Origin: a virus
Strand: one strand, 5' to 3'
DNA length: 22,961 nucleotides
Virus record (IMG/VR): IMGVR_UViG_3300028392_000303
Span: 1 to 22,961 of that record
Shown in pieces: positions 3,400 through 19,407 of this stretch. The notes under the pieces are model-generated. The model did no database searches. It was not told the origin of the DNA and was given only the letters and a program-made list of their open reading frames with translations. Positions within the stretch are counted from its first letter, which is position 1; every line of letters starts with the position of its first letter. A program made the position numbers and the translations under genes.

Positions 3400-3429
3400 A
3401 TCTACTCCTGATGTTTGCTGTATGTATAT

Positions 3430-3458: not shown

Positions 3459-3473
3459 TTGGTTTTATAACTG

Positions 3474-7103: not shown

Positions 7104-7510
7104 TCTATTTGTGCTCTATTGTTACCAAGTCTTGTTACATTAACATAACCAGCAGTCCGATCTTTAGCTTCCATACCTTCACCTTGAATCATGGAACTAT
7201 ACAAATCTCGAAACCACCGATCAACAATTTGTTCATCTGGATCACCGTCAAATCCGTAACCAGCTTGTTTCAATTGTACTATAAACAGGTCGTTCCAGTC
7301 AAGCTCAAAAAAGCCATTTCTTGGATTGTCTTTATTAACTTTGGTGTCCAATACGCTAACCCAAGGCTCACCTCGAGCAGTAGCACGTTCTTTTGGTGCT
7401 AGTTTAGCAATACGTTCATCTTCTTTAGCCTGAGCAGTTTCTAACTGTGCTTGCTCTTTCTCGGCAAGAAGCTTGTCTATACCAAACATCTTTCTAATAA
7501 ATTGTTTCAT
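7100..7510 (-). CDS. Conserved T4-like phage protein of unknown function, 136 aa
   Basis: The ATG at 7510 (MKQFIRKMFGIDKLLAEKEQ) is preferred: it overlaps the queE stop as TAATG and has GGGGA five bases upstream. A GTG 12 bases earlier is less likely. The N-terminal 50 residues form a charged helix or coiled coil. They are followed by GEPWVSVLDTKVNKDNPRNGFFELDWNDLFIVQLKQAGY and DEQIVDRWFRDL, a signature I remember from many T4-like phages. Function unknown. It sits between queE and the nuclease in a coupled string. Confidence 0.72.
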   Translation of the reverse strand: MKQFIRKMFGIDKLLAEKEQAQLETAQAKEDERIAKLAPKERATARGEPWVSVLDTKVNKDNPRNGFFELDWNDLFIVQLKQAGYGFDGDPDEQIVDRWFRDLYSSMIQGEGMEAKDRTAGYVNVTRLGNNRAQIE

Positions 7511-8364
7511 TAAGTTCCCCACTCATTTTTAAATAGTGGCACTTGTAAACGGTCACTATAACGTAATCCGTGCTTCATAGCCATTATTGCCACATTTTTA
7601 TTATTCAATGCGTAAACACTTTCCACACCGCCCACTGGCATTAGATAAACGTGTCCTTTAAATCCTGCTTTACGATATGCGGCAATGGCACATTCAGCAT
7701 CAGCAAAGTCTTGTTCAGTAGCAATAACAAACTTCAAATACGCTGTGCCGACTTCTTCATATTCACAAACTACTTCTGGAAGAATAGCTTCTTCCCACTT
7801 TTCACCACTACATGGAAGTTTAGCACTTACGCTAAATGTAATTTCTTTATTTTCACACCCATAGGCCCAAAAATTGTCAATCAAATATTGTTTAAATTCT
7901 GATGTAAGTTTTTGAGTGCCGTTAGTTTCAAAAGTGATTTCTTTAAGACCTTGCATCTTAGGGTGACTTAACAAGTCTGGGTAAGCACGTTGCCAGCCCA
8001 ATAACGGTTCTCCACCTGTAATAACCAAGTGTTCATCCTTCCAATGATCCTGTGGAAGAATTTCCATAATACGATCTGCGATTGCTTCGCTAGTAAGCAT
8101 AGGGCTAAGTTCTTTAAAACTAGGATGCCACGATGCGTAGCTATCACACCCTGTGCTAACTAATGGCAAGTCTTCATATTTTGTAAACATGTGAGATACG
8201 CTGGCAATTTCTTCGGCTTCTTCACTCAACATGCCTCGACTCATACCAAATCCAGCACATTTAAAGTTACAACCAAATGTACGTAAGAACACACTTGGTA
8301 CACCCATATAACGTCCTTCTCCTTGGATTGAATAAAATAACTCGGCTATTTTAATTTTTGACAT
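7510..8364 (-). CDS. queE: QueE-like 7-carboxy-7-deazaguanine synthase (radical SAM) with a split cluster motif
   Basis: QueE converts 6-carboxy-tetrahydropterin to 7-carboxy-7-deazaguanine by radical SAM chemistry. The 284-aa protein opens with AELFYSIQGEGRYMGVPSVFLRTFGCN, a QueE hallmark, and has the SAM-binding ITGGEP motif at 115-120. The usual CX3CX2C is changed: C32 and C36 are in place, but C73, in GCDSYASW (equivalent to the usual WCDT), follows a 36-residue insertion. I have seen a similar CxGF-type insertion in other phage QueE proteins, so this looks like a lineage feature rather than damage. It is in the folE transcript. Upstream and downstream genes overlap it. The QueE assignment is strong; activity is unproven. 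Confidence 0.87.
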   Translation of the reverse strand: MSKIKIAELFYSIQGEGRYMGVPSVFLRTFGCNFKCAGFGMSRGMLSEEAEEIASVSHMFTKYEDLPLVSTGCDSYASWHPSFKELSPMLTSEAIADRIMEILPQDHWKDEHLVITGGEPLLGWQRAYPDLLSHPKMQGLKEITFETNGTQKLTSEFKQYLIDNFWAYGCENKEITFSVSAKLPCSGEKWEEAILPEVVCEYEEVGTAYLKFVIATEQDFADAECAIAAYRKAGFKGHVYLMPVGGVESVYALNNKNVAIMAMKHGLRYSDRLQVPLFKNEWGT

Positions 8365-8692
8365 TTTTCTTCCTAAAATCTTCTACATCGTCTATTGCTA
8401 GTTTTAAAGTTTCTGCATAGTTTAAAGCACCTTGAGCTTTCAAACAAACAGTTGCTTGGGTATCAATATATCCTTTGGTAAGCAGAGTCCAGATATGATG
8501 CCATCGTGTTTGAGTCCAAAAGTTAGATCTAGTAGTAGTATAAATTGTTACAGTAACTCCAGTGTCTTCGGCCTCTACCCAAACATTATGGTCGCATTCG
8601 GAACTACCGCATTCGCATGTAACACGATAAACTTTTGAGTCTCCCCAATCGTTGTGTTTTAATATACCTTCTGCTGGCATTTGATAATTCAT
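8351..8692 (-). CDS. Unknown cysteine-containing protein between folE and queE, 113 aa
   Basis: A protein beginning MNYQMPAEGILKHNDWGDSKVYRVTCECGSSECDHNVWVEAE. The CxCxxxxC-x-H cluster (residues ~26-35) could bind zinc or another metal. The remainder has beta strands (VTVTIYTTTRSNFW), an HHIWTLLTKGYI helix and a Lys-rich end. It starts inside an ATGA overlap with the 73-aa gene and overlaps queE by 14 bases, so it is almost certainly co-translated with the deazaguanine genes. It lacks the QueD active-site pattern, so I do not call it QueD. It may simply be a common small phage protein. Confidence 0.65.
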   Translation of the reverse strand: MNYQMPAEGILKHNDWGDSKVYRVTCECGSSECDHNVWVEAEDTGVTVTIYTTTRSNFWTQTRWHHIWTLLTKGYIDTQATVCLKAQGALNYAETLKLAIDDVEDFRKKNVKN

Positions 8693-8910
8693 TCCACGCC
8701 CTCCTCAAACCATTCATCGACCATTTGTTCCGCCTCTTCTTGTGTAAGGGCTGGTACAAAAATACGAGCAGGTTCTCCTGCTGTATGTTGTATACTAAAC
8801 TTAATTACACCATTTAATGGTACATTATTAAATTCTCTTTCTACAACAAATTCTTGTAAATTTTTAGCACGATTGATTAATTGATCAGTTAACTCTTTAG
8901 CAGTGGTCAT
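8689..8910 (-). CDS. Small unknown protein, 73 aa
   Basis: A small acidic protein with an N-terminal helix (TAKELTDQLINRAKNLQEF), a central strand region (NGVIKFSIQHTAGEPARIFVPA) and an acidic C-terminal helix (TQEEAEQMVDEWFEEGVE). No known motif. It overlaps the folE stop (ATGA at 8910-8907) and the next gene (ATGA at 8692-8689), so it is a link in the folE-queE operon. Confidence 0.65.
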   Translation of the reverse strand: MTTAKELTDQLINRAKNLQEFVVEREFNNVPLNGVIKFSIQHTAGEPARIFVPALTQEEAEQMVDEWFEEGVE

Positions 8911-9644
8911 TTTGAGGCATACTCCTGTTGCATTTTAATATTATCAAAGAATTCTTTCTTAGTACCCATGTCGTCTTTGAATGCGCCTTTGAGTACAGTA
9001 GTCTGTGTTAAGCTACTCTTAGCCATAATGCCACGATTTTCACAACAACCGTGAGTTGCTTGAACATAGACTGCTACGTTTTCTGATTCGGTTGCTTTTT
9101 GGATTTCTCTTGCGATGTCGTTACATAATTCTTCTTGAAGTGTGCCACGACGAGCACACCACTGAGCGATGCGAGTATATTTAGAAAGGCCAATAAGTTT
9201 GTTAGCCGCAATAATTCCGATGTATGCCACACCTGATACAGGCTGGTGATGATGACTACACATAGAACGCAGTTCGCTACGTACAACCAACATACCTTCG
9301 TATCTATCTGCCGAATCATTTGGAAAAGCTGTTGCATCTGGTGCTGGATCATATCGACCTCCCATAATTTCGTTGTAATACATTTTAGCTAATCGTTTAG
9401 CTGTACCTCGACTGTTAGGATCGCTTTCACGATCAATGAGCAATCGATCTAATACTACTTCAAACGCTTCAGTGGCTTCTTTAATTAAGATAGCCTTGTC
9501 TTCTTCACTAACATACTCACTGATGTTATCGCCTGCCCAAAAGCGTTTGCCTTCTCGCTTCATTTTAAAGCGGATAGCATCTGCTAGATTAGCTTCTTCA
9601 TAGCCCTTGTCGTCTATGTTATTATAATTTACTGGGTCACTCAA
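8907..9644 (-). CDS. folE: GTP cyclohydrolase I (FolE)
   Basis: FolE converts GTP to 7,8-dihydroneopterin triphosphate, the first step to both folate and 7-deazaguanines. The 245-aa protein has the zinc ligands C129 and H132 in RSMCSHHHQPVSGVAYIGII and C200 in THGCCENRG, with the family segment NKLIGLSKYTRIAQWCARR between them. This pattern is the canonical type I enzyme. The start is a TTG at 9644: GGAG lies about eight bases upstream, and the next in-frame Met (residue 28) would remove part of the conserved N-terminal helix. A promoter sits 40-70 bases upstream. With QueE and a QueD-like protein in the same window, a deazaguanine role is more likely than folate supply. Confidence 0.93.
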   Translation of the reverse strand: MSDPVNYNNIDDKGYEEANLADAIRFKMKREGKRFWAGDNISEYVSEEDKAILIKEATEAFEVVLDRLLIDRESDPNSRGTAKRLAKMYYNEIMGGRYDPAPDATAFPNDSADRYEGMLVVRSELRSMCSHHHQPVSGVAYIGIIAANKLIGLSKYTRIAQWCARRGTLQEELCNDIAREIQKATESENVAVYVQATHGCCENRGIMAKSSLTQTTVLKGAFKDDMGTKKEFFDNIKMQQEYASK

Positions 9645-9685
9645 TTTATTACTCCGATGTTAAGGCAGTGGATTGCCATATGTGT

Positions 9686-9714
9686 ATTATACAATCTTAT
9701 TTAGGTTTATTCAA
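9686..9714 (-). promoter_or_regulatory. Sigma-70-type promoter for the folE-queE transcript
   Basis: TTGAAT (9714-9709, 4 of 6) and a perfect TATAAT (9691-9686) on the minus strand, with a 17-base spacer. The -35 lies inside the end of the upstream small membrane protein gene. The leader to the folE TTG start is about 35 bases. Confidence 0.7.
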
Positions 9715-9912
9715 GATATTTTCTGCTCGAAGTTTGCGACAGCCTTCTTTAACAGCTATTGGATAGTCTGGGCTTATTTCAGATATTGAGCAGTCATATA
9801 CTATTGTATCACCTTTTTTTGGTAGTGATAAAAATATCATTGGTATTACTATTAGAACAGCAACAGCAATCACACCTATTTCTATAGTTTCTCGCTTAAC
9901 AATATTTGACAT
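9697..9912 (-). CDS. Small single-span membrane protein, 71 aa
   Basis: One transmembrane helix (about residues 11-31, IEIGVIAVAVLIVIPMIFLSL) is followed by a short Lys-containing stretch and a conserved-looking tail, YDCSISEISPDYPIAVKEGCRKLRAENI. The tail resembles a small protein seen in many environmental T4-like phages (from memory). The start overlaps the upstream gene by 31 bases. Basic residues near the N-terminus (VKRE) suggest the tail faces outward, but orientation is not certain. Function unknown. Confidence 0.68.
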   Translation of the reverse strand: MSNIVKRETIEIGVIAVAVLIVIPMIFLSLPKKGDTIVYDCSISEISPDYPIAVKEGCRKLRAENILNKPK

Positions 9913-10136
9913 AGGTCAGCATCCCTCTTTGATTTGAAATAAAATTCCATCTTGTCTTCGCTCGGGTGACTAGTAAATTTATCTCCCGGCAATCCAAATA
10001 CTTCTAGAACGTCTATACATGCTTCATTCCACCAATATTTGTTTTGTCCCTTCCACGGAATTGCTACAATATATTGATAGCCATCGTCACGTGCTGGTAT
10101 ACGGCTATCCCAGTTAGCATGTTTTTTTGAGTTCAT
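9882..10136 (-). CDS. Hypothetical protein, 84 aa
   Basis: The ATG at 10136 (MNSKKHANWDSRIPARDDGYQYIVAIPWKGQNKYWWNEACIDVLEVFGLPGDKF) has AAAGGA about six bases upstream, so I prefer it over longer in-frame starts lacking such a site. The protein is soluble and aromatic-rich, with a helical C-terminal end (KSKRDADLCQILLSEKL). No known motif. It overlaps the end of the SGNH gene by 23 bases. Confidence 0.65.
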   Translation of the reverse strand: MNSKKHANWDSRIPARDDGYQYIVAIPWKGQNKYWWNEACIDVLEVFGLPGDKFTSHPSEDKMEFYFKSKRDADLCQILLSEKL

Positions 10137-10695
10137 CTTGAATCCTTTTAAAGACAAATCTGTTACCAACTTCTGTATAATGATTAATAGTACCCCGTTC
10201 ACTGGCCCATAACGTACTAAGATTAATATTATGTTTTTCTATTGCTAGTGAATTAACAATTTCAACATGCGACAAACTAATATATGGAACAGCAATCATA
10301 TCATGAATCTGCTTACGTAACAAATTATAAATGTCAATTTGATATTCTTCGTCGTAATGGTATTTGAAAAAATTCTTTGCTGTGTATAGATTTGTATTAA
10401 ACGGTCGGAAATGCTCAATTAAATCCGTAAGTATTAGATCACAATTTTTATGTAACCCAGATTTATGTATAGGATGATTATTAGTGTGTATCCTACTGGG
10501 ACTAGTATGACTTACTATTACTAGATCAAATTGGTTTATATCAACGCTACAAACTTGTTTATAAATTTTATATTCACCAATACCTGCTTGTGCTAGATTA
10601 GTTACCTGATGTTGTTCGGCAAGTAATCCTACCCAACTTAAATTAGGTGTTGATAATTTAGTAGCAAAACTATCACCGGCAATTAAAATGTTCAT
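10114..10695 (-). CDS. SGNH/GDSL-type hydrolase-like protein
   Basis: A 193-aa protein that opens with MNILIAGDSFA, the block I GDS motif with the presumed nucleophile S9. A block II-like NLAQAGIGEYKIYKQ glycine (about 38-40) follows, then VIVSHTSPSR where block III would lie, and NHYTEVGNRFVFKRI near the C-terminus with H172. The usual Asp three residues before this His is a Thr (T169), so the catalytic dyad may be altered. SGNH enzymes are esterases or deacetylases acting on lipids, sugars or acetylated polymers. Here the substrate is unknown. The gene follows a 49-base gap after the HIT gene, where I see no good promoter. Confidence 0.7.
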   Translation of the reverse strand: MNILIAGDSFATKLSTPNLSWVGLLAEQHQVTNLAQAGIGEYKIYKQVCSVDINQFDLVIVSHTSPSRIHTNNHPIHKSGLHKNCDLILTDLIEHFRPFNTNLYTAKNFFKYHYDEEYQIDIYNLLRKQIHDMIAVPYISLSHVEIVNSLAIEKHNINLSTLWASERGTINHYTEVGNRFVFKRIQDELKKTC

Positions 10696-10744
10696 ATAGT
10701 AACATACACGTAAGGGTAGTAGTTGACTATAAACACAGTCCTAC

Positions 10745-11116
10745 TCATTTTTTGTAATTTCCTTTTTCAGGTATAACATGTCTAACACCGCCACGTGGGT
10801 CTTCCATATCTCCGTTGCGTCTTGGAATCATATGTATGTGCGGATACATCACTGTTTGACCAGCTGCCGCACCGCAGTTTTGTCCAATATTATACCCGTC
10901 CCATTGTTCATTAATAATACCATCATACCCAAATTTATGTGCAGCTTTATAACAGGCAATAATGTTATCAAACTTTTCCTGTGTTGGTACAAACAATAAG
11001 TGCCCATCTGTAACAGCATACGCATCTCTAAAGACCCAAAAGTCTTTAGCTCTGTATTCGATTTCAGTCCATGGTGCTCGACGTTCGTCAAGTGCTTGTT
11101 CTAGATCTGTTTTCAT
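10745..11116 (-). CDS. HIT-family nucleotide hydrolase/transferase
   Basis: A 123-aa histidine-triad protein. The signature region YNIGQNCGAAAGQTVMYPHIHMIPRRNGD matches the HIT pattern N-x-G-x-x-A-G-Q ... H-x-H-x-h-P-R; the first His of the triad is replaced by Tyr and the two others, including the likely catalytic one, are kept. HIT proteins hydrolyse or transfer nucleoside phosphates and phosphoramidates. I chose the ATG at 11116 (MKTDLEQALDERR) because the longer frame needs a GTG with no ribosome site. The N-terminus overlaps the upstream 60-aa gene by 29 bases. A role in nucleotide salvage is inference. Confidence 0.82.
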   Translation of the reverse strand: MKTDLEQALDERRAPWTEIEYRAKDFWVFRDAYAVTDGHLLFVPTQEKFDNIIACYKAAHKFGYDGIINEQWDGYNIGQNCGAAAGQTVMYPHIHMIPRRNGDMEDPRGGVRHVIPEKGNYKK

Positions 11117-11270
11117 TTTCCAAAAATTTAATTTCGTCTTGAATATACTCACGGTACTCAGTTAGTACTCCCAACTTTCTTCCAGAGTCTCCTGTAGCCC
11201 TAAGTTTTTCTAAATCTTGATCTATAACTTTTAGTTTTGCTTTAAGATCGTCTACGGTTAACTCGCTCAT
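11088..11270 (-). CDS. Small coiled-coil protein, 60 aa
   Basis: A short, highly charged helical protein (MSELTVDDLKAKLKVIDQDLEKLRATGDSGRK ... YREYIQDEIKFLENE) that looks like a helical hairpin. It overlaps the upstream membrane protein gene as ATGA (11270-11267) and the downstream HIT gene by 29 bases. No known motif; it may be a small adaptor or oligomerisation protein. Confidence 0.6.
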   Translation of the reverse strand: MSELTVDDLKAKLKVIDQDLEKLRATGDSGRKLGVLTEYREYIQDEIKFLENENRSRTST

Positions 11271-11464
11271 TTGCTAGTTCCAAATCTTAATCCGCTAGCA
11301 CTGCCTAATAGAATTGCAAATGCCGCCCAAGTTTCCCAAGTATATGGGATATGTAGGATAGGAAAGAGTGTATTTAAACTCCATATACCTAACAATGGTC
11401 CAATAGCGATAGCAAATACTATCAAAATAATACCTAAAATAAGTTTAATTAATGCTGATGTCAT
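11267..11464 (-). CDS. Small two-span membrane protein, 65 aa
   Basis: The ATG at 11464 (MTSALIKLILGIILIVFAIAIGPLLGIW) overlaps the phosphoribosyltransferase stop as ATGA and has GGGAGGA nine bases upstream, so it is preferred over a longer frame. Two hydrophobic helices (about 5-30 and 42-58) flank a short loop, SLNTLFPILHIPYTWETW. A protein with a very similar layout (WSLNTLF ... IPYTxETW) occurs in many T4-like phages, in my memory. Function unknown; it probably sits in the inner membrane. Confidence 0.7.
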   Translation of the reverse strand: MTSALIKLILGIILIVFAIAIGPLLGIWSLNTLFPILHIPYTWETWAAFAILLGSASGLRFGTSK

Positions 11465-11952
11465 AACCAATAATCCTCCCAAGGATAAACTAACCAACAA
11501 TCTTCGTCTGCTTTATTAACTTCCCATACTGAGTAGTCTACATCTTCTTTGCTAGACAGGTTGTTCGTGAGTGTAGCAAAGCGTACAGTCTTGTGCCATA
11601 TATCATTGTCCCAGCGTATAGCACTGGGCAATGCTGATTCACGCCAGTCTTGTTTGATCCAGGCAATTGTGCTACCTTGGTCATTGATGTCATCTACTAT
11701 AAGGATATTTTTACCTTCATACGCATCTTCTGCCATGCCGCAGTTGCTGACAGTATCGCCGCCATCACGCAAACTGATATCTAGGCTGTTCATCTTAATG
11801 CCAGTGTACTGACTCAGCAGATTAGCGGGAACAAGACCTCCGCGACCAATACCTACAATGTAATCTGGACGCCAATTATGTACTGACATTTGCCTGGAAA
11901 TTTCCAAGCAGGCACCCTCTACTTGCGACCAAGTATAGTAAATCTTTTTCAT
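11461..11952 (-). CDS. Phosphoribosyltransferase-domain protein (PRTase fold)
   Basis: A 163-aa type I PRTase-like protein. The PRPP-binding motif is ILIVDDINDQGST (residues ~83-95), and the upstream YIVGIGRGGLVPANLLSQYTG loop (~31-51) fits the pyrophosphate-binding region of xanthine/hypoxanthine-type enzymes. Family members join a base to PRPP to form a nucleotide. The C-terminal half is aromatic and acidic (WEVNKADEDCWLVYPWEDYW), as seen in phage versions. The start overlaps the upstream stop as ATGA. The base specificity cannot be read. A salvage role for purines or a modified base is inference, though the neighbouring deazaguanine genes make purine chemistry attractive. Confidence 0.82.
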   Translation of the reverse strand: MKKIYYTWSQVEGACLEISRQMSVHNWRPDYIVGIGRGGLVPANLLSQYTGIKMNSLDISLRDGGDTVSNCGMAEDAYEGKNILIVDDINDQGSTIAWIKQDWRESALPSAIRWDNDIWHKTVRFATLTNNLSSKEDVDYSVWEVNKADEDCWLVYPWEDYWL

Positions 11953-12182
11953 GCTGTTAGTGCTGTAGCCAGAGTTGCCATTTCTTCTTTAGTCATAAAG
12001 AAATTATATACCGCTGTGTCTCGAACTTCGCCATCGAGCCCTAATGTTTGCTGTTCAAAGTCGACACTGAATAATCCTTTAGGCATTAGTACTTCGTGTT
12101 TTTTCAACACCAGACGAAATCCTTCGTGATCTTTAATAACTGTTTCCGTATAGGTATTTCTAATTGATTCATGTAGTTCCAT
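11949..12182 (-). CDS. Hypothetical protein, 77 aa
   Basis: The ATG at 12182 (MELHESIRNTYTETVIKDHEGFRLVLKKHEVLMPKGLFSVDFE) has GGAG six bases upstream. A longer frame would begin at a TTG with no suitable site. The protein looks mainly beta in its first half and ends with a helix (TKEEMATLATALTA). No motif recognised. It overlaps the upstream gene by 14 bases and the phosphoribosyltransferase gene by four (ATGA). Confidence 0.62.
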   Translation of the reverse strand: MELHESIRNTYTETVIKDHEGFRLVLKKHEVLMPKGLFSVDFEQQTLGLDGEVRDTAVYNFFMTKEEMATLATALTA

Positions 12183-12558
12183 TTTCATCTCCTTTAATTG
12201 CTTCAAATGTTCTGTATTTGCCCAATGCTGTAATGTATTCGTTATACAGTTTCTTCAGCTTCGGATGCTTACGTTCTAGTATAACATCTCTTTCAGGAAT
12301 TGCCAAGACTTTTTCAATGGTGTCTAACCGTTCTTCTAAATCTCGTCCGTTGATAACCATATTACCTTTAACTTCTATAGTAGGGGGATTAGTTTGATTA
12401 ATCTTCATTACTGTGTCATACGGATTAGAAGGATTAGCCCAATTAGTTGTACCAGTACCTGTGGTTGTATAAATCTGCCCAGGTTGTCCGGTAGTATGTA
12501 CCGTATTGTTTCCGTATAATACACTAGGCATTTTTACGGTCGTCAAGATATTTGCCAT
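12169..12558 (-). CDS. Probable virion-associated protein, 129 aa
   Basis: The N-terminal ~60 residues are Thr/Gly/Asn-rich (NNTVHTTGQPGQIYTTTGTGTTNWANP), typical of beta-structured phage fibre or decoration segments. The rest is a helical block: MVINGRDLEERLDTIEKVLAIPERDVILERKHPKLKKLYNEYITALGKYRTFEAIKG. I have seen this block (GRDL ... LxxIE ... HPxLKxxYxxY) in many T4-like phage proteins of unknown role. The start at 12558 has GGAT eight bases upstream; a TTG seven codons earlier is less likely. It overlaps the cupin gene by 35 bases. A structural role is inferred from composition only. Confidence 0.62.
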   Translation of the reverse strand: MANILTTVKMPSVLYGNNTVHTTGQPGQIYTTTGTGTTNWANPSNPYDTVMKINQTNPPTIEVKGNMVINGRDLEERLDTIEKVLAIPERDVILERKHPKLKKLYNEYITALGKYRTFEAIKGDENGTT

Positions 12559-13006
12559 TTGGTATCCATTTATTATCAACTAAAAAACCCCATTCTCTTT
12601 TTTGAGGACCTGGCATAAACAATGTCCAAGCAGTTACACTTTCTTTTAATTCAATACGATGATAACTGTTAGGACTACAGATGCGGAAATGCCCAGGACC
12701 TCTCCAATATTTTATTTCGTTAATCTTTTCGCCAAGGGTATTGAACACCGGCACCCATTCATAGTACCCACCTGCTAAAATTAAGGTAGCATACGGCCAT
12801 GGATGATCATGGACATCGTCCGGATCACCTTTTAAAAACTTGTGTAGAAATATATTAAACGGAAACTTTTTTCGATCTTTAAGGAACAAGTAGTACCGTT
12901 CTAAGTATGGCTCGTTGTTCACACGATCCATAATGATAATTTTACGACCACGTTTTTCTAACCATCTAAGGCTTTGCTCTTTGATCTTTTGGAGTATCAT
13001 AGTCAT
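12524..13006 (-). CDS. Cupin-fold protein
   Basis: A 160-aa single-domain cupin-like protein. The first cupin motif is seen in DVHDHPWPYATLILAGGYYEW, with two His positioned as metal ligands. The second is in GHFRICSPNSYHRIEL, with a further His, and is followed by AWTLFMPGPQKREWGF. The N-terminal 50 residues are basic and hydrophobic (LRWLEKRGRKIIIMDR). Related proteins occur in T4-like phages, usually described only as cupins. The reaction is unknown. It is inserted between two genes that share a virion-like character and overlaps both. Confidence 0.72.
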   Translation of the reverse strand: MTMILQKIKEQSLRWLEKRGRKIIIMDRVNNEPYLERYYLFLKDRKKFPFNIFLHKFLKGDPDDVHDHPWPYATLILAGGYYEWVPVFNTLGEKINEIKYWRGPGHFRICSPNSYHRIELKESVTAWTLFMPGPQKREWGFLVDNKWIPNGKYLDDRKNA

Positions 13007-13382
13007 CTTTTACAAGTTTATAAACTGTCTTAAATTTTTCAAACGCTATTGCTAGCCCGGGATACTGTTTACACATCTCCTCAACTCTAGACCAATCTGG
13101 GAATTTGTTAATCCATTCGTCCCCGCCACTCCATATACTTGACATATCAATGCCACTAATAGTATTAATAGTAGAGCCATTAGTAAAACAAACAGACCCG
13201 GTACTAATTGTATTTGGATAACATGGAATACATGGATTAGTATAATATGCTAAACCTGAGGTAGATAATGTTATAGTGCTTAAATCAATAGTATTACTAG
13301 CATAACTATTATCAGTAAAAGTAATAGTGTCTCCACTACTTAATGTTGTTAAGTAATCCGTTTGCGCTAAAGAAGTTGTCAT
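12966..13382 (-). CDS. Probable virion-associated protein, 138 aa
   Basis: About 75 N-terminal residues are Ser/Thr-rich strands (TLSSGDTITFTDNSYASNTIDLSTITLST), with a CIPC pair and a later Cys. They are followed by a short helical domain (DWSRVEEMCKQYPGLAIAFEKFKTVYKLVKDDY). The helical end resembles that of the protein at 12169-12558 and a motif I know from T4-like phages (YPxLxxAxExFKxxYxLV). The start has GGAGG six bases upstream and overlaps the glycosyltransferase gene by 47 bases. Surface fibre, decoration or assembly roles are all possible. Confidence 0.6.
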   Translation of the reverse strand: MTTSLAQTDYLTTLSSGDTITFTDNSYASNTIDLSTITLSTSGLAYYTNPCIPCYPNTISTGSVCFTNGSTINTISGIDMSSIWSGGDEWINKFPDWSRVEEMCKQYPGLAIAFEKFKTVYKLVKDDYDTPKDQRAKP

Positions 13383-14436
13383 GTAAAGCCTCCGCTTGTT
13401 TTTTAATGGACGGAATCATTTGTTGATAATTGTCCATGTACTGTATTATGCGTCCGCACAAGTCTGGACGAAATACTTCATACGCTTCAAAACTTTCAGT
13501 CCACTTGCTTGGGTATTTGAAAGTGTCAAAATACATCTCGGTGTAGCTAAGTCTATCCGGCACCATAGGAACGGCATCTACTACTGCCCCTTCATAGCAA
13601 CTGATGCCCAGCGTTTCTTGTAAGTTAGCACTGAACACTAATTTAGCTTCACCTAATAATTTATGATATTCGTCTTTAGATAATGCTCGATCTTGGCAAA
13701 CTACAAATTCATATTGTGGTAAGTGAGTAGCCAAGTCTCTAAAAATCTCAACTTGTTTCTCAGGAGCAATTCTGTGTGGGAATAGAATAAGATCACGCTT
13801 AGTCATATTTTTGTATGGGCTTAGTGTAGCATCCATATATTCCATTGGCCAACCAGTACGCACAAACTTATCACTAAATGTACCGGCACGTAGTTCTGTC
13901 AAATCTTCTTCAAACCACGGATTCTCTGTTGGAAAATCATTTAATAGATTTGTAAACAGTAGCTCAATATGAAATTGTGTAGCAAAGTAATTATAGTCAA
14001 ACGCCGCAAAGAATGATTTCTCAGCGTGTCTAACCCAGGGCTTGTTGCCAACAAGCCGCCCTAGGAAATCTTGAGGATCATAACTGCCAGCATGCCATAA
14101 TCCATGTGTAGTCACAGGTATCTGTAACAGTTCACTCATGTACTTTAAGTTTATGATGCCAGGATGCCAAGCATCAGCAAAGATGAAGTGATCGCCAGGA
14201 GCCACTGATCCGGAGCAAAATAAACGACCCATTTGCTCAACCTGACTAGCCTTGTATATATTGGTACCACCAAAATTAAGAAAAGCGCCTGGAGTAGTAG
14301 CCCGGGGAATATCCTCAGGGCCAGAGATAATTTGAACATTATGTCCTGCCTTTGTAAGTAACTCCGGTACATGAGTTTTCCATTGACCTGTGTACCGGGT
14401 ATCTACTGCTTCTAGATCAACGAGAAAAACAGTCAT
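13336..14436 (-). CDS. GT-B glycosyltransferase
   Basis: A 366-aa glycosyltransferase with two Rossmann-like halves. The donor-binding half shows LILFPHRIAPEKQVEIF (residues ~216-232, the usual R-x-x-x-EK element) and LVFSANLQETLGISCYEGAVVDAVPMVPDRLSYTEMY (~267-302), with the E-x(7)-E pattern of GT4-like enzymes (E274, E282). The N-terminal half has a Gly-rich NFGGTNIY loop and a FADAWHPGIINL strand/loop. It would move a sugar from an NDP-sugar to an unknown acceptor. Phage glycosyltransferases may act on modified DNA bases, capsid proteins or host surface sugars. It follows the QueD-like gene and a small gene in a coupled string (TAATG), so a link to DNA modification is possible but unproven. 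Confidence 0.8.
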   Translation of the reverse strand: MTVFLVDLEAVDTRYTGQWKTHVPELLTKAGHNVQIISGPEDIPRATTPGAFLNFGGTNIYKASQVEQMGRLFCSGSVAPGDHFIFADAWHPGIINLKYMSELLQIPVTTHGLWHAGSYDPQDFLGRLVGNKPWVRHAEKSFFAAFDYNYFATQFHIELLFTNLLNDFPTENPWFEEDLTELRAGTFSDKFVRTGWPMEYMDATLSPYKNMTKRDLILFPHRIAPEKQVEIFRDLATHLPQYEFVVCQDRALSKDEYHKLLGEAKLVFSANLQETLGISCYEGAVVDAVPMVPDRLSYTEMYFDTFKYPSKWTESFEAYEVFRPDLCGRIIQYMDNYQQMIPSIKKQAEALHDNFFSANGLLNNIK

Positions 14437-14693
14437 TAACTTTCTTGTCTGTTGTACGCTGGACGCGGATTTTTGCCTAGATACGGCTTACGCTCACCAT
14501 TCCAAGACTTGCGTGGGCGTGTGCTACGCTCATACGATTGCCAAACTTTTGCCCCTCTATTATACAGATCTGCTTCGTTAAACGGCAACATCTCAATACG
14601 ACAAAAATCTAACAGCTTTTCAAGATCATCAAAGATCCGAACAACGTCAGGACGGTTTTCAAAGTATGCGTAGTCTTTGTAATTCTTAGCCAT
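14436..14693 (-). CDS. Small basic protein, 85 aa, unknown
   Basis: The N-terminal half (MAKNYKDYAYFENRPDVVRIFDDLEKLLDFCRIEMLPFNEADLYN) is helical. The C-terminal third is Arg/Lys/Pro-rich (RSTRPRKSWNGERKPYLGKNPRPAYNRQ), likely disordered and able to bind nucleic acid. It resembles small conserved proteins of T4-like environmental phages whose role I do not know. It sits between the QueD-like gene (14-base gap) and the glycosyltransferase gene (TAATG overlap). Confidence 0.65.
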   Translation of the reverse strand: MAKNYKDYAYFENRPDVVRIFDDLEKLLDFCRIEMLPFNEADLYNRGAKVWQSYERSTRPRKSWNGERKPYLGKNPRPAYNRQES

Positions 14694-14707
14694 AATAGCC
14701 TCTTATT

Positions 14708-15103
14708 TTAATATTTAATGAACGAACCATTTTCTCCGTCTTCGGAGACCTCAATCCAAACCTCACGGTCTGGATACTTTTGTGAAATAGTGTCGTACAA
14801 TTCGTCCGACATCATTTCGCAACTCTTATGATCTAGCGACAAAACACCTTGTGCGCTAGAATACAGTTGTTCAAGCCATCGCTTGAACTGTATGAATTCC
14901 ACATCTCTATCATTGTGGGTGACACTAAGCCATACCCTAAAATGGAAAATATGACGATGAGGATTAGCAAGAAACGATACATCATATTGATCTCCTGTTG
15001 CTAGGTTAGGGTCTGTAGCGGCCGCAGGATAGCAATGAATGCCTTCCTTTTGAAATGTGACCCAAATCATTTTAAGCGGGCGAATGTCTTGTTTAATAAT
15101 CAT
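14708..15103 (-). CDS. Divergent QueD / 6-pyruvoyl-tetrahydropterin synthase-like protein (T-fold)
   Basis: A 131-aa protein that fits a diverged 6-carboxytetrahydropterin synthase. Visible similarities are PHRHIFHFRVWLSV (H49 and H51 in place of the HGH zinc ligands), HNDRDVEFIQFKRWLEQL (the V-x-DF-x-x-LK-like helix), the SLDH pair D91-H92 (the family's catalytic Asp-His), and VWIEVSEDG near the end (the VxVxET segment). The catalytic Cys expected four residues before H49 is Leu, and the first zinc His may be H23 in GIHCYPAA. So the chemistry is uncertain. Gene position supports the call: it overlaps (ATGA) the 180-aa gene in the DpdA-like operon, and folE and queE are in the same window. 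Confidence 0.55.
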   Translation of the reverse strand: MIIKQDIRPLKMIWVTFQKEGIHCYPAAATDPNLATGDQYDVSFLANPHRHIFHFRVWLSVTHNDRDVEFIQFKRWLEQLYSSAQGVLSLDHKSCEMMSDELYDTISQKYPDREVWIEVSEDGENGSFIKY

Positions 15104-15642
15104 TTTATAATTTGGTCGTTAGTGTAGTCAGTCCACGGAGTGAACTTACTACGGTCTTTAAGAGTGTGTAGACTATGTGACCACACACCAGGATTAGTAG
15201 CATTAAAATCTTTATCGTCAATTTTAATCATCGTATTATAATTCCATAATTTAATGTAGGGAATTGGAACTCTTATCTGCGGAATAAAATTATTATGATC
15301 ATTTAATCCGCCATCATTGAATTCTTCTACTTGATTTAAGGGAATATCTAAACTACACCAGTAGCCTTGCTCGAGAAAATATGTAATCATATCTTCCCAT
15401 AGTTTATGTTCATCATATCCGTTGGGATTAAAACTATGATTAGCACCAAAGAAAATATGCTTAATATGTTTACTAGTATCAAGCAAACAATTCTCATCTC
15501 CGAGGATATGCTCGATTGCTTGCTCGTTTTGAACACCAGTTACAAATAGTGTACGCATACCGAATGTAGGTGTATGCTCGACTTCATTACCAATAAAGAA
15601 ATCTACGTTATCACTCACACCGTCTTTATAGTCACGCTTCAT
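15100..15642 (-). CDS. Unknown conserved protein in the deazaguanine operon, 180 aa
   Basis: I do not recognise the fold. The sequence opens MKRDYKDGVSDNVDFFIGNEVEHTPTFGMRTLFVTGVQ, continues with HIKHIFFGANHSFNPNGYDEHKLWEDMITYFLEQGYWCSLDIPLNQVEEF, and ends with NFIPQIRVPIPYIKLWNYNTMIKIDDKDFNATNPGVWSHSLHTL. The alternation of short strands and helices suggests an alpha/beta domain, and the HSF, NPGVW and KIDDKDF segments look conserved-like. I have a memory of similar proteins in cyanophages, unnamed. It overlaps the BPSL0761 gene by 11 bases and the QueD-like gene by four, so it is co-translated with the DpdA-like pathway. Confidence 0.7.
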   Translation of the reverse strand: MKRDYKDGVSDNVDFFIGNEVEHTPTFGMRTLFVTGVQNEQAIEHILGDENCLLDTSKHIKHIFFGANHSFNPNGYDEHKLWEDMITYFLEQGYWCSLDIPLNQVEEFNDGGLNDHNNFIPQIRVPIPYIKLWNYNTMIKIDDKDFNATNPGVWSHSLHTLKDRSKFTPWTDYTNDQIIK

Positions 15643-15874
15643 TTTTAGTTTGCTCGTAAAGTTTAAACATTCGAGTCACGTCTTCCATGCGTTCAGCAAA
15701 ATGCTCAGGAGCACCTCGAGCCGCCGCTTTCATGTCATATTCTTCGGGATAGTGTCGTAAACAAGCTCGAGCACCGTCTTTGATTGCTTTTGGAACTCGG
15801 GGAGTAGTCAGGATCTCTAATAGAAATCTTTTAGTTTGTACTACTGCTCGATATCTTTCATCTGGTAATGTCAT
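15632..15874 (-). CDS. BPSL0761-family protein, 80 aa
   Basis: The opening MTLPDERYRAVVQTKRFLLEILTTPRVPKAIKDGARACLRHYPEEYDM matches the pattern of the small BPSL0761 family: an M-T-x-P-x-ER-x-RAV start, a helix ending FL, and LRHYP. The family is known from proteobacteria and some phages and has no established function. The protein is helical and basic. It overlaps the DpdA-like gene (ATGA at 15874-15871) and the 180-aa gene by 11 bases. Confidence 0.72.
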   Translation of the reverse strand: MTLPDERYRAVVQTKRFLLEILTTPRVPKAIKDGARACLRHYPEEYDMKAAARGAPEHFAERMEDVTRMFKLYEQTKNEA

Positions 15875-17508
15875 TTTACTATTGCTTCTAGTTCGTCAAG
15901 TTTATCAATTGCGGATTCGTTGAATTCGCTGTCTTCTGCTAATTGTACAGTATTGGAATCCACTTCGTCAAATAGATTGGCAAACGATGTACTAGCATTA
16001 ACAGTTTTCTTACCGCTAGCACCTCGAGTACCAATAATATCCATCCAATATTTGTTATATTCTTCAACTAGGTCGTCTGCTCGTCCTCGATCACTTGTTT
16101 CAAATATAGCATTAACGATGTCCTTGAAAAACATGTGTTCATATTGCTTAGACGATTTTCTATTTGCGTCTAGTACACTCATCATAGCAGGCATATTACC
16201 AGCATCATATTGGCGGTTAGCTTCTTGTACAGCATTAATATGCATCCAAACATTGTGCCCCATTTGAATAGCATAACTAAATGAATCCCAGCTAGTCTTG
16301 TTACTAACTTTACCTAACTTATTCAAGTCCGGTGTTTTAATCCAATCTGCTGGATTCATTGGGTCCGGATTAGTAATACCAGGTTTGGGAATACCAGCAC
16401 CGTAGATACAAATCTCTTTCATAGTAACTTGATCTATGATTGGACTAGATTCAAATAATTTAAAGATATTATCTTGTATTACTGCGTCTTTAAAGAGTCT
16501 AGTGTCTGTTGCGTATTTTTTATTGTCTGCAGAAGACTGCATACGGTAGACCCATTTTTTACGATCTTCGGTTTCTGTGTTGATATAGATTTGTCCGTTT
16601 GCGGTAGCAAGGAACGGACTTGCGCAGTCAAAAGAGATGGTAAATTGCTCATTATGATATTTCCTTACAGCACGTTGAATGTCAGTGAGCAGTACAGCCC
16701 ACTCCAATTTTGAGGTACCTAAGAAGTGCATCCAATCTTGTTCACCCTTCTCAAGCAAGCCATCAAATCTTAATGCCACTAGGCGTTTTAATACCAAGTG
16801 TACGTCACACATATTCTGCCCACCCATACCCCAACCGTTAAAATGACGGTCGCCGTATTGTTTAGGATCACAATACTTCTTCATGCGATCATACCAGTCG
16901 TCGGCATCGGCGTGATTTTCGCCCTGTAAAACGTTTAAGAACTTACAATTGCCGTTTCGATTATTAACAAAATAATCGTTATTAATATAAGTACCTTGTA
17001 CAGCTTCTGCGTATGTACTAATGCCAGTTGCCGCAACACCAGACGGACTACGAGCTACCCACGCTGGGATATCAAGCCCCATACCATAGTCCATTAGCGT
17101 GTCCATCCAAGTTAACACTTGAGAACGTTTCTTTGCCGCTTTGGGACAATTGGGATCTTTCCAATCAGCAGGCCAAACACCTTTACCGATCTGGAAACCA
17201 CCTGAGTCACCTAACACCCAACTTGTAGATCTATTACGATTTCGGAACATGTCCTCGCTTTCGTCTTGTTTATTCAAATCAAGATTAGCATGTCCTGCGG
17301 AGTACAAACAATGGTCATAATAAAATGCGCCTTTATCTGGGTCAAGATAGTTAAGACTTTCAACGCCATTCACAAAACTTGCCGGAATACGAGCAGGATC
17401 TACATAGTTGCTATAGCGTTGTTTACCTATAAATGTACTATAAAATCCCGATGTTGCTGGCAAGAAATATGCGTAATCGTTTTGATGTGCTGTTAAATTT
17501 TTATTCAT
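15871..17508 (-). CDS. dpdA: DpdA-like DNA guanine transglycosylase (TGT superfamily)
   Basis: TGT-fold enzyme predicted to replace guanine with a 7-deazaguanine base, in DNA rather than tRNA. Numbered from a possible longer start at 17550, the landmarks are: GDSGGFQ with D115 (general acid/base of TGT), D160 in MGLDIPAW (substrate base recognition), NVLQGENHADADDWYD (205-220), GWGMGGQ (239-245), HFLGTSKLEW (275-284) and FTISFDCASPFLATANGQIY (303-322) with the nucleophile D308 in the TGT-like FDC-x-x-P context. The zinc motif CxCxxC...H of bacterial TGT is absent, as I expect for DpdA-type enzymes. The ATG at 17508 overlaps the upstream stop (ATGA). An ATG at 17550 has AGGA 11 bases upstream and would add 14 residues. 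Sub-family not determined. Confidence 0.85.
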   Translation of the reverse strand: MNKNLTAHQNDYAYFLPATSGFYSTFIGKQRYSNYVDPARIPASFVNGVESLNYLDPDKGAFYYDHCLYSAGHANLDLNKQDESEDMFRNRNRSTSWVLGDSGGFQIGKGVWPADWKDPNCPKAAKKRSQVLTWMDTLMDYGMGLDIPAWVARSPSGVAATGISTYAEAVQGTYINNDYFVNNRNGNCKFLNVLQGENHADADDWYDRMKKYCDPKQYGDRHFNGWGMGGQNMCDVHLVLKRLVALRFDGLLEKGEQDWMHFLGTSKLEWAVLLTDIQRAVRKYHNEQFTISFDCASPFLATANGQIYINTETEDRKKWVYRMQSSADNKKYATDTRLFKDAVIQDNIFKLFESSPIIDQVTMKEICIYGAGIPKPGITNPDPMNPADWIKTPDLNKLGKVSNKTSWDSFSYAIQMGHNVWMHINAVQEANRQYDAGNMPAMMSVLDANRKSSKQYEHMFFKDIVNAIFETSDRGRADDLVEEYNKYWMDIIGTRGASGKKTVNASTSFANLFDEVDSNTVQLAEDSEFNESAIDKLDELEAIVK

Positions 17509-17855
17509 ATTAAATGTTGTGCCAGTACCATACAGCTGATCCACGCCCATATAGTGTTAAATCCTACTAGTGTCGGTAATAATTTCTTCTCACTTGCCCA
17601 AATAAGTGTTAGACTTGTTGCTAGTGTAAAGAAATACAACCACCATATTTGTATACCGAATATTAAACCAGGAACAATGATAAAAGCCTTGGCCGCCCAA
17701 CTTAAAAACTCCACGAGATTATAGTCAGTCCAATATTCCTTTGTAAACCACATGCCATAGCACTCTTTAATCTTAGTAAACGTAATATGTTTATATACTA
17801 TTACTATTAAAACTAGCCATGCTAGGCATGCAGATACTATCTGGACATTATTCAT
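17505..17855 (-). CDS. Polytopic membrane protein, 116 aa
   Basis: Four hydrophobic stretches, about residues 5-22 (IVSACLAWLVLIVIVYKH), 50-70 (FLSWAAKAFIIVPGLIFGIQI), 70-88 (IWWLYFFTLATSLTLIWAS) and 94-115, predict a small inner membrane protein with several Trp residues at the interfaces. No known motif. Its ATG overlaps the clamp stop as TAATG and its stop overlaps the DpdA-like ATG (ATGA), so it is translated between clamp and transglycosylase. A role with the modification enzyme is possible only by position. Confidence 0.7.
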   Translation of the reverse strand: MNNVQIVSACLAWLVLIVIVYKHITFTKIKECYGMWFTKEYWTDYNLVEFLSWAAKAFIIVPGLIFGIQIWWLYFFTLATSLTLIWASEKKLLPTLVGFNTIWAWISCMVLAQHLI

Positions 17856-18586
17856 TACTTAGATTGTGCTGGTAGAATGTAGTTATACTCGGCAAGTCCG
17901 CTGTCAACTGTAATTTGTAGTGCGCCTTGATCAGTAATCTTCATAGTAATATCACCACTTAGATTTAAAATGCTCATCATTTGATTAACGGGCCATGACC
18001 ACGATTGTTTCAATTTACCAGTAATGCCTGCTTGGAAAATAAATGATCCAGCATGGGTGCTAGCATCACCAAAACTAAACACTAGGTTATCATCTTTAGT
18101 TGTTATTTGAAATACTGTTTCTTCAGTATGTGCTTGTGCTTGGAACTTCAACCGTTGGATACTTGAAACGCTTGGTTGGAATTCAATATCCCAAGAAGAG
18201 CCTTTATACTTTACAGACTTAAGACGTTCGTTAATAATGTCTTGATTCATAAAACGGTAATCGTTTTCAAAATCGTTAGCCGCATTAACAAAGTGTAACC
18301 CTGTTGGAATTTCTTCCCCGTTACGTTGTTGTTTAACCACGCTAATCTTTGCGTTTTCTTTGTACTCTGGGCACTTCAAATGAATGTCCAACTTGTTTAA
18401 GTTAGGCATGCCAAACGTACCTTCAAAGTCGCTGACTGGTTTATGAGTCTTAGCATTAACAATAACTGAACGATCCTCAGCCATCGATTCAATTTTTGTT
18501 TCTGTGTCAGTAGCACTAATTTTCACTAATGGCAAAAAGCCAAGTGAATGTGTATGTGCTACTAGGTCTTGTAAAAAGTCTTTCAT
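17855..18586 (-). CDS. 45: Sliding clamp, T4 gp45-like DNA polymerase processivity factor
   Basis: A 243-aa protein close in length to T4 gp45 (228 aa). It begins with a helix (MKDFLQDLVAHTHSLGFLPLVKI), then repeated beta strands, a LNKLDIHLKCPEY segment, and a C-terminal end GALQITVDSGLAEYNYILPAQ that is typical of the T4-type clamp (AEYxYILPA). The clamp forms a trimeric ring that holds the polymerase on DNA and, in T4, also activates late transcription. The polymerase at 19408-22077 ends in a clamp-binding-like FNSLFEF. GGAG lies seven bases upstream of the ATG. It has its own near-consensus promoter. Confidence 0.8.
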   Translation of the reverse strand: MKDFLQDLVAHTHSLGFLPLVKISATDTETKIESMAEDRSVIVNAKTHKPVSDFEGTFGMPNLNKLDIHLKCPEYKENAKISVVKQQRNGEEIPTGLHFVNAANDFENDYRFMNQDIINERLKSVKYKGSSWDIEFQPSVSSIQRLKFQAQAHTEETVFQITTKDDNLVFSFGDASTHAGSFIFQAGITGKLKQSWSWPVNQMMSILNLSGDITMKITDQGALQITVDSGLAEYNYILPAQSK

Positions 18587-18607: not shown

Positions 18608-18636
18608 ATTATATTTAGGTTTGTGACAAAAGTCAA
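18608..18636 (-). promoter_or_regulatory. Near-consensus sigma-70 promoter for the sliding clamp gene
   Basis: TTGACT (18636-18631, 5 of 6) and a perfect TATAAT (18613-18608) on the minus strand, 17-base spacer. The -35 overlaps the stop of the dehydrogenase gene. The spacer contains a short inverted repeat, TTTGT-C-ACAAA. The leader to the ATG at 18586 is about 20 bases. Confidence 0.83.
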
Positions 18637-19406
18637 GCATTTTTTCGTATTTGATGATTGTATTTCACCGTTTCTTCAACTAGTGTAATTGGCGACCCAA
18701 TTGCGTTAGCCCATTGTATAAATGCTGTCGTGTCTTTGGGGAAACAATGACCTCCCCATCCACGTTCTCCATCTGGTCCTGGCACAATAGTGTGTCCAGA
18801 ACCAATTCTTTGATCGTTAGCTAGTATGTGTCTAACGATATCATAATCCATTCCTGTTGTTTCGCAAATATCGTTTATTTGATTAAAGAAACTTGTTTTA
18901 AGAGCAAGGAACGAGTTAGTTGAGTATTTGACTAAACATGCTTCTTTAGCAGTACAGTTAAACACTAGTTTACAATTTGGTAATGTTGTTTGGAATAGTT
19001 CTTGCCAAAAACATTCAGGATCCTCACCGCCTAACACAACATACTTTTGATTTAAGAAATCTTCATTAGCACTTCTTGCTCTTAAAAACTCTGGACTATA
19101 TGTTATAGAAAGTGTTGAATATGCTTGTTCGAAAGCTTCGGCAATGCCAGGGGTTACTGTACTTTTAATTAACACTGGCATGAATATAGGTACTTGGTCC
19201 AATATGCTAATAATTATACTGTCATCGCAAACACCATTTTCAGTAGCGGGAGTTGGCGCACATATAATCAATCCATCGGCATCGTGATGATCTTTAATTT
19301 GATCTTCGGAATATTTAGGATCAACAATAACGATTTCGTGTTGATTTTTAAAAGCATTGAATACTGCTTTACCAACAAATCCGTATCCGGCAATAATTAT
19401 TTTCAT
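18633..19406 (-). CDS. UDP-glucose/GDP-mannose dehydrogenase-family enzyme, short form
   Basis: A 257-aa nucleotide-sugar 6-dehydrogenase. The N-terminal Rossmann motif is IIIAGYGFVG. The middle holds LIICAPTPATENG, KSTVTPG and YSPEFLRARSANEDF. The catalytic Cys lies in GWGGHCFPKD (C221), with the preceding GSGHTIVPGPDGERG substrate loop. Full-length family members are ~390-450 aa; this one stops soon after the catalytic Cys region and lacks the C-terminal UDP-binding domain. I recall such short forms in T4-like environmental phages. It would oxidise an NDP-hexose to a uronic acid, perhaps for a glycosyltransferase such as the one at 13336-14436. The ATG at 19406 is used; a TTG at 19418 is less likely. 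Confidence 0.85.
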   Translation of the reverse strand: MKIIIAGYGFVGKAVFNAFKNQHEIVIVDPKYSEDQIKDHHDADGLIICAPTPATENGVCDDSIIISILDQVPIFMPVLIKSTVTPGIAEAFEQAYSTLSITYSPEFLRARSANEDFLNQKYVVLGGEDPECFWQELFQTTLPNCKLVFNCTAKEACLVKYSTNSFLALKTSFFNQINDICETTGMDYDIVRHILANDQRIGSGHTIVPGPDGERGWGGHCFPKDTTAFIQWANAIGSPITLVEETVKYNHQIRKNA

Positions 19407-19407
19407 A

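Follow-up and report, generated by a model that had tools for sequence, protein, structure and literature searches.

The viral DNA analyzed here (IMG/VR record IMGVR_UViG_3300028392_000303; 22,961 nucleotides; hereafter the window, which is the entire record) carries genes for FolE, QueE, a QueD-fold protein, and a DpdA-like transglycosylase, members of a pathway that would place a 7-deazaguanine derivative into DNA. With slightly better than even confidence, we conclude that this DpdA-type module branches off at 7-carboxy-7-deazaguanine (CDG) and bypasses preQ0, and that the QueD-fold protein, a member of the family phrog_17812, replaces QueC. Were phrog_17812 to act on CDG, the inserted base would be 7-deazaguanine or CDG, and not preQ0. 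The components of the module (protein families, folds, residue conservation, and gene order) are well supported by our data; the substrate, the chemistry, DNA as the target, and protection from restriction are what we infer.

Absence of QueC and QueF

An earlier sequence-only reading of the window had placed FolE, QueE, a QueD-like protein, and a DpdA-like enzyme together, with neither QueC nor QueF in sight. Profiles, structural models, and conserved gene order confirm this grouping: all four genes are encoded on the minus strand within positions 7510-17508, and a chance co-occurrence is unlikely because their order is conserved among relatives. Our searches of the window found no QueC, no QueF, and no QueD of the PF01242 type; absence of a gene inside the window alone proves nothing. 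The missing QueC and QueF are also borne out by longer DNA. A 94-kb contig (G001/L004), whose retrieved stretch is 99.98% identical to the window over 17,088 bases, yielded no QueC, and neither QueC nor QueF exceeded its cut-off in any of 25 long uncultured contigs (14 + 11; 41-353 kb; the 94-kb contig included). That QueC is missing merely because the contig was cut was rejected on the basis of this 94-kb contig and the 24 other long contigs. With QueC absent both from the window's own contig and from its long relatives, the end product is best read as something other than preQ0.

When whole records were searched with PF06508, QueC was over the cut-off in one of 17 records (Vibrio phage 2.275.O) and in one of a further 21 (D479), while QueF exceeded its cut-off only in 2.275.O (one of 18 records, then none of 21). 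Sub-threshold QueF matches in ACP17, Ahp1, Bakedbeans, and D479 lie within annotated FolE genes, as is expected because T-folds are related. The uncultured contig G013 (G013:C1:42795-43385; L085/L206) encodes a divergent protein of the QueC superfamily that has an SGGLDS motif and, at its C terminus, a cluster of cysteines. We rejected an overlooked QueC of this kind as a general explanation, since the protein used as a query matched only itself in 39 records.

QueC and phrog_17812 as near alternatives

A tblastn search with phrog_17812 returned 27 phage records, which we grouped into 12 named phages (PA5oct type, Phosso, ACP17, the Cellulophaga phiST group, RHph_I1_18, X1, Ahp1, Bakedbeans, D479, BUCT-ZZ01, Roos, and MA9V-3), and each was represented by a single record in the further searches. 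Eleven of the 12 lack a QueC over the cut-off; the exception, D479, has a match to the C-terminal part only. As controls, we used 14 phages with the pathway, 11 of them picked from 60 of the 105 records matching the ACP17 QueD, together with CAjan, Iggy, and 9g, of which Iggy likewise matches that QueD. QueC exceeded the cut-off in all 14, the weakest match being that of Mendera (30.9 bits). None of them contained phrog_17812, in a search in which the profile had no positive-control signal; the same model matched 17 of 18 other records, the exception being the QueC-bearing 2.275.O. With 2.275.O added, QueC passes the cut-off in all 15 phages without phrog_17812 versus 1 of 12 with it (Fisher p 9e-7, from a test that ignores relatedness and was applied to 27 hand-picked phages).

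FolE, QueC, a tRNA-guanine transglycosylase (TGT), and QueE are described as lying in one cluster in the Menderavirus Ps15, a distant relative of ACP17 (PMC9025141); ACP17 itself possesses a DpdA-like gene, a glycosyltransferase gene, phrog_17812, and QueE. The exclusion pattern and the contrast between Ps15 and ACP17 look like a replacement of QueC, and we infer that phrog_17812 handles CDG in its place.

The QueD-fold protein phrog_17812

No Pfam family matched the phrog_17812 protein of the window at E <= 1. Its AlphaFold model (mean predicted local distance difference test score, pLDDT, 90.8) has E. coli QueD as its best Foldseek match (E 3.4e-4) and a Pyrococcus homologue of 6-pyruvoyltetrahydropterin synthase (PTPS) as its best VIA match (Z 11.9, 93 residues, 2.2 A). 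The fold assignment rests on this model because hhalign comparisons with phage QueDs are only partial (E 3.6e-5 over 48 columns; 2.4e-4 in another). A histidine trio of the zinc-binding type (H23, H49, and H51), the stretch S94-C95-E96, and E121 are conserved in 15/15 and 43/43 rows of two alignments that represent overlapping sets, and R66 and E69 are also invariant among the 15 phage sequences. The trio would most likely hold a zinc ion.

The sequence-only reading had called this protein QueD-like, and as an ordinary QueD it does not stand up. The cysteine of QueD, which is catalytic together with an Asp-His pair, has no conserved counterpart between H23 and H49; at positions 91/92, Asp is found in 9/15 and His in 4/15 phage rows, the window protein having D-H. 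Since neither the cysteine nor the Asp-His pair is conserved, we do not class phrog_17812 as a QueD. Moreover, several relatives encode a QueD of the PF01242 type in a gene of its own: PF01242 exceeded its cut-off in 6/18 and 13/21 records (the uncultured contigs G003, G004, G013, and G018-G022 among them), and of the 12 named phages with phrog_17812, 10 possess such a QueD, D479 and Roos being those without.

These phage QueDs have peculiarities of their own. Nine of 11 aligned rows read HGY for HGH, and most keep the Cys, the Asp-His pair, and the Glu; in seven of the nine HGY rows, Phe or Tyr replaces the first zinc histidine. HGH is found in Bakedbeans, and PA5oct possesses an HGH QueD as well. 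Genes of the HGY type were seen at L089, L091-L093, L113, L114, and L201, and in 12 QueC-bearing phages without phrog_17812. Their presence in these 12 phages weakens the idea that an HGY QueD needs phrog_17812 as a partner, and on the same ground we rejected phrog_17812 as one half of a split QueD.

The DpdA-like transglycosylase

The DpdA-like open reading frame (ORF) matched neither Pfam nor PHROG at E <= 1, and a profile of 41 relatives found nothing among the sequences in the PDB. Its AlphaFold model, computed with an alignment of 57 relatives (mean pLDDT 86.0), had TGTs for all of the best 50 of its 804 Foldseek matches (best E 6.6e-7), and it resembles the T. maritima TGT over 307 residues at 4.4 A (VIA Z 19.9). 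Among viral models, the top match was a protein of 596 residues, probably the 2.275.O homologue, to which it is equal in length; further structural neighbors are a TGT of Motura, the phiST protein M4SLA5, and a protein of nt-1 that is presumably the DpdA2 of this phage.

In the family alignment, D115, S116, G118, Q120, D160, G210, and D308 occur in 57/57 rows, G117 in 56/57, and Q209 in 48/57. The motifs follow one another as in TGT (D115-S-G-G-(F/Y)-Q120, D160, Q209-G210, G244, and D308), with residues paired by motif order and not by residue-level superposition. In the Z. mobilis TGT, the aspartates and the DSGG(F/Y)Q motif serve in catalysis and base binding. With these motifs present in order, the base-exchange pocket, on which the sequence-only reading had hinged, is therefore not obviously lost, and the enzyme would exchange guanine in DNA. 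Translation probably begins with the ATG at 17508, which is the end given in the sequence-only reading and the point at which the family consensus starts; residues 1-13 of the longer reading (15871-17550) have pLDDT values below 50.

A tblastn search with this protein found 13 phage records, namely 11 of the PA5oct type, Phosso, and Vibrio phage 2.275.O. In viral contigs, a single query found 293 relatives and an alignment query at least 597 stretches. Single-sequence searches of these contigs with the DpdAs of PA5oct and 2.275.O gave no match, and the DpdA-like protein of ACP17 matched one contig, which is 100% identical to ACP17. For the gene-order analyses below, we kept 80 relatives from the 293 (close relatives) and 80 from the at least 597 (more distant relatives), and these 160 were not dereplicated.

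FolE and QueE

FolE exceeded its Pfam cut-off by a wide margin (Table 1). QueE, which is firmly placed by its PHROG match, also matched TIGR03365 in NCBIfam (5.7e-16), every NCBIfam QueE match being below its cut-off. Its radical S-adenosylmethionine cysteines C32, C36, and C73 are invariant in 11 aligned phage QueEs. The second and third of these Fe-S cysteines (C36 and C73) have 36 residues between them in the window protein; such a long insertion is present in 7/11 of the aligned phage QueEs, including those of PA5oct, Vibrio phage 2.275.O, X1, and BUCT-ZZ01, and the short spacing is found in ACP17, phiST, MA9V-3, and Iggy.

A glycosyltransferase-type protein in the module

Adjacent to the QueD-fold gene and its small 85-amino-acid (aa) neighbor lies a gene for a glycosyltransferase (GT)-type protein. 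In Pfam and NCBIfam, no GT family is matched directly by the window protein; its homologues match PF00534 (X1, 8e-12, 45.5 bits, over the cut-off; ACP17, 2.5e-4, below it), and a profile of the family found WlaC in the PDB (E 3.5e-4). At E <= 1e-3, tblastn returned 19 phage records, all from phages with the 7-deazaguanine pathway; 15 of them are in the phrog_17812 list and four (Ep032 and three PhiXhv phages) in the phage-QueD list. Since all 19 fall into one or the other list, we rejected the notion of a general phage glycosyltransferase. The GT gene adjoins a DpdA-type gene in ACP17, X1, and PA5oct, and phrog_17812 in ACP17, PA5oct, Phosso, and BUCT-ZZ01. In Xanthomonas phage PhiXhv-12 (L244:8911-12145), genes for Gat-QueC, a PIG-L deacetylase, and a GT of the same family as that of the window (hhalign E 3.6e-26) stand in a row, which would fit the attachment of an N-acetyl amino sugar to the 7-deazaguanine followed by its deacetylation.

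Because the GT gene is fixed beside the T-fold protein in the relatives of the window, was retrieved by tblastn only from pathway phages, and takes part in the gene row of PhiXhv-12, the DNA of these phages may contain a 7-deazaguanine that bears a sugar and is made without QueC, a suggestion from gene content that we put forward tentatively and consider rather doubtful. Against it stands that the GT was found in only 5/12 of the named phrog_17812 phages; no match was seen in the retrieved stretches of phiST, RHph_I1_18, Ahp1, Bakedbeans, D479, Roos, and MA9V-3.

Proposed route and competing explanations

In the route that we favor, FolE, a phage-type QueD (encoded elsewhere in the genome or by the host), and QueE would make CDG. 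phrog_17812 would then take the place of QueC: CDG would be bound in the purine/pterin pocket of the T-fold beside the zinc ion held by H23/H49/H51 and processed; the simplest conversion would be a decarboxylation that yields 7-deazaguanine, as proposed for DpdL. The TGT-fold enzyme would swap guanine in DNA for the modified base, the adjacent GT-type protein may decorate the inserted base, and a phosphoribosyltransferase may recycle the freed guanine. DpdL was reportedly proposed as a CDG decarboxylase by Cui and colleagues in 2023, in a study said to have measured the deoxynucleosides of 7-deazaguanine (dDG) and CDG (dCDG) and to have included phiST, in which we found phrog_17812. phrog_17812 may be DpdL.

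A number of observations weigh against this route. QueC-superfamily proteins do occur among the relatives, namely that of contig G013, weak in the record search and scoring 27.8 bits when scanned alone, and that of D479 (32.8 bits, C-terminal part only); in X1, an ATPase of the 3'-phosphoadenosine 5'-phosphosulfate reductase type lies directly behind FolE (L116:7846-8379; PF01507 1e-13) and could be a stand-in for QueC, and it is possible that such divergent ATPases of X1 and D479 fill the QueC role. A decarboxylated base offers the GT no obvious acceptor, and neither the window nor its 94-kb contig contains a PF01242-type QueD. Besides the hand-picking and relatedness of the compared phages, in several controls the QueD by which they were selected lay next to an annotated QueC. 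The exclusion is shown in one direction only, since every QueC-less phage sampled has phrog_17812. In the searches made, neither FolE nor QueE nor QueD turned up in Roos, and DpdA was looked for in only part of the 12 phrog_17812 phages. Bipper possesses DpdA and pathway genes and no QueC, according to Hutinet et al. (2019; PMC6884629), and is absent from the 27 phrog_17812 records, its presence in the searched collection not having been checked.

Bipper also bears on the alternative that DpdA inserts CDG itself and that phrog_17812 is a helper, e.g., a chaperone or channel for CDG, and no decarboxylase. The confidently named enzymes lead as far as CDG, its carboxylate would offer the GT an acceptor, and it was considered for the QueC-less Bipper by Hutinet et al. 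(2019). The end product, which the sequence-only reading had treated as an open question, was in this respect a narrower question; a DpdA-type route without QueC stands, with a base other than preQ0 favored. We regard insertion of CDG with a mere helper as unlikely, since phrog_17812 is present in 17 of 18 records and keeps a full histidine trio and invariant C95, R66, E69, and E121, which suggests an enzyme. That this enzyme is a QueD after all, or a subunit of a mixed oligomer with the HGY QueD, yielding CDG or, with a host QueC, preQ0, appears to us decidedly unlikely. The fold is that of QueD, two zinc histidines of phrog_17812 are missing from most HGY-type phage QueDs, and T-fold active sites sit at subunit interfaces; yet the catalytic residues of QueD are not conserved, the 12 QueC-bearing phages suggest that the HGY QueD needs no such partner, and PA5oct carries an HGH QueD too.

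A host QueC could also complete preQ0 for insertion by the phage as dPreQ0, the loss of the phage gene being mere economy. The DpdA of 9g alone put host-made dPreQ0 into E. coli plasmid DNA (Hutinet et al., 2019; PMC6884629), but reliance on the host predicts no substitute protein, and 11 of the 12 named phrog_17812 phages are without a QueC over the cut-off and all 15 others examined have it; this explanation is thus improbable. Least credible of all, and very improbable in our view, is an action on tRNA or other RNA, by which the genes would tune queuosine and leave the DNA unmodified. It draws on the TGT fold and on tRNA TGTs as the best PDB matches. The viral structural neighbors of the DpdA-like protein, in turn, include the presumed DpdA2 of nt-1, whose DNA holds 7-deazaguanines; a DNA polymerase gene lies at the same locus in nearly all relatives (Table 1); and without QueC and QueF the usual queuosine precursor is not made by the phage.

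Gene order and other genes of the locus

Read along the minus strand, the DpdA-like gene is followed by genes for the 80-aa, 180-aa, QueD-fold, 85-aa, and GT-type proteins, several small ORFs, the phosphoribosyltransferase, small ORFs, a HIT protein, small ORFs, FolE, two small ORFs, and QueE. Overlaps between adjacent ORFs (15871-15874 for DpdA/80-aa, 15632-15642 for 80-aa/180-aa, and 15100-15103 for 180-aa/QueD-fold) suggest translational coupling. Among relatives with enough downstream sequence, by cut-offs that we set ourselves, the QueD-fold gene was present in 69/69 (34 + 35), the GT gene in 27/27 (26 + 1), FolE in 26/27 (25 + 1), and QueE in 22/23 (close relatives only). In 114 of the 115 relatives showing both genes (56 + 58), the GT gene lies at most 1.5 kb 3' of the QueD-fold gene.

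Table 1. Features of the window; paired counts refer to close and more distant relatives.
Feature	Position	Strand	Evidence
Phage DNA polymerase, upstream neighbor	19408..22077	minus	phrog_262 1.6e-199; 77/80 and 75/80 relatives
243-aa protein, neighbor upstream of DpdA	17855..18586	minus	phrog_12062 6e-36; 80/80 and 77/80 relatives
DpdA-like TGT-fold transglycosylase	15871..17508	minus	AlphaFold model with Foldseek/VIA, motif conservation; ORF open to 17550
80-aa protein between DpdA and 180-aa protein	15632..15874	minus	66/80 close, 1/80 more distant relatives
180-aa protein, module member	15100..15642	minus	88/88 (44 + 44) relatives with enough downstream sequence
QueD-fold (T-fold) protein, phrog_17812	14708..15103	minus	phrog_17812 E 5e-33; start overlaps stop of 180-aa gene
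85-aa protein between QueD-fold and GT genes	14436..14693	minus	56/80 and 55/80 relatives
GT-B glycosyltransferase-like protein (GT4-type by homologues)	13336..14436	minus	PF00534 matches of homologues, WlaC profile match
Xanthine/guanine-type phosphoribosyltransferase	11461..11952	minus	PF00156 6.9e-14; NF006613 4.2e-13, below cut-off
FolE, GTP cyclohydrolase I	8907..9644	minus	PF01227 E 7.1e-39, 133.5 bits vs. cut-off 27
QueE, CDG synthase	7510..8364	minus	phrog_2076 E 6e-50

The sequence-only list of pathway genes stands for FolE, QueE, and the DpdA-type enzyme; it had omitted the GT-type protein, the 180-aa protein, and the phosphoribosyltransferase. The 180-aa protein, which has no Pfam match and no usable PDB match, also occurs in PA5oct and in ACP17, where it lies between FolE and the DpdA-like gene; the 80-aa protein is specific to the lineage. 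Homologues of the phosphoribosyltransferase adjoin QueE in PA5oct and BUCT-ZZ01, and the gene is present in 22/27 relatives with enough sequence. Its simple role would be guanine salvage because base exchange releases guanine, so that it possibly recovers the guanine freed by DpdA.

Beside the DNA polymerase gene, positions 18633-19418 encode a nucleoside diphosphate-sugar dehydrogenase (TIGR03026 5.9e-41, below cut-off). As a UDP-glucose dehydrogenase, it was rejected as a part of the module, being present in 53/80 close but only 7/80 more distant relatives. Positions 12524-13006 encode a cysteine-dioxygenase-like protein (phrog_4786 2.7e-38), which is found in 22/26 close relatives with enough sequence. 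An ATPase (phrog_1297) and a 400-aa protein labeled HNH endonuclease in PHROGs (phrog_1314) follow one another at 2197-4574, and homologues of both lie near the PA5oct cluster. The protein encoded at 148-723 carries the PHROGs label endonuclease V (phrog_274, 8e-12); by eye, it is more like a 2-oxoglutarate oxygenase.

Comparison with known systems and implications

The que clusters of ACP17 and X1 resemble the window in that FolE, QueE, a TGT-type enzyme, phrog_17812, and a GT occur together and no QueC exceeds the Pfam cut-off. They differ in gene order, the QueC-less operon of ACP17 reading QueD, FolE, 180-aa protein, phrog_10773 protein, GT, phrog_17812, and QueE, and in their TGT-type enzyme, which belongs to phrog_10773; that of ACP17 aligns weakly with the DpdA of the window at an hhalign E of 1e-4 (probability 58), and that of X1 gave no meaningful alignment. 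In the Pseudomonas jumbo phages of the PA5oct type, DpdA (35% identity), GT, phrog_17812, and QueE are likewise clustered and QueC is missing; there, however, the GT gene precedes phrog_17812 instead of following it, and the 180-aa protein and two QueDs of the PTPS family sit elsewhere. The reported DpdL systems with dDG and dCDG share with the window a QueC-less route from CDG and, unlike it, are not known to include a glycosyltransferase. A TGT fold accompanied by FolE and QueE is common to the window, the DpdA2 of nt-1, and other DpdAs. nt-1 possesses QueC and ArcS, and its DNA contains dPreQ0, dADG, and dG+ (Hutinet et al., 2019; PMC6884629); unlike it, the window has neither QueC nor QueF, and its DpdA matches neither Pfam nor PHROG.

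In a limited survey of the literature, we recognized nothing as this module, and the passages of PMC12028318 consulted do not treat a DNA glycosyltransferase. What is new here is a GT-type protein tied to the 7-deazaguanine pathway and fixed beside phrog_17812 in the relatives of the window. Our analysis also brings to light a lineage of DpdA that neither Pfam nor PHROG matches and that is represented by at least 597 stretches in viral contigs. The apparent QueC gap becomes a testable rule, with QueC and phrog_17812 being nearly alternative in 27 named phages, and the presence of phrog_17812 therefore predicts a base other than preQ0; cultured phages with phrog_17812 exist in phiST, ACP17, and PA5oct. 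If the suggested sugar is real, these phages would join base exchange and glycosylation, two disguises of DNA known separately, and their DNA would hold hypermodified bases of a new class, the glycosylated 7-deazaguanines.

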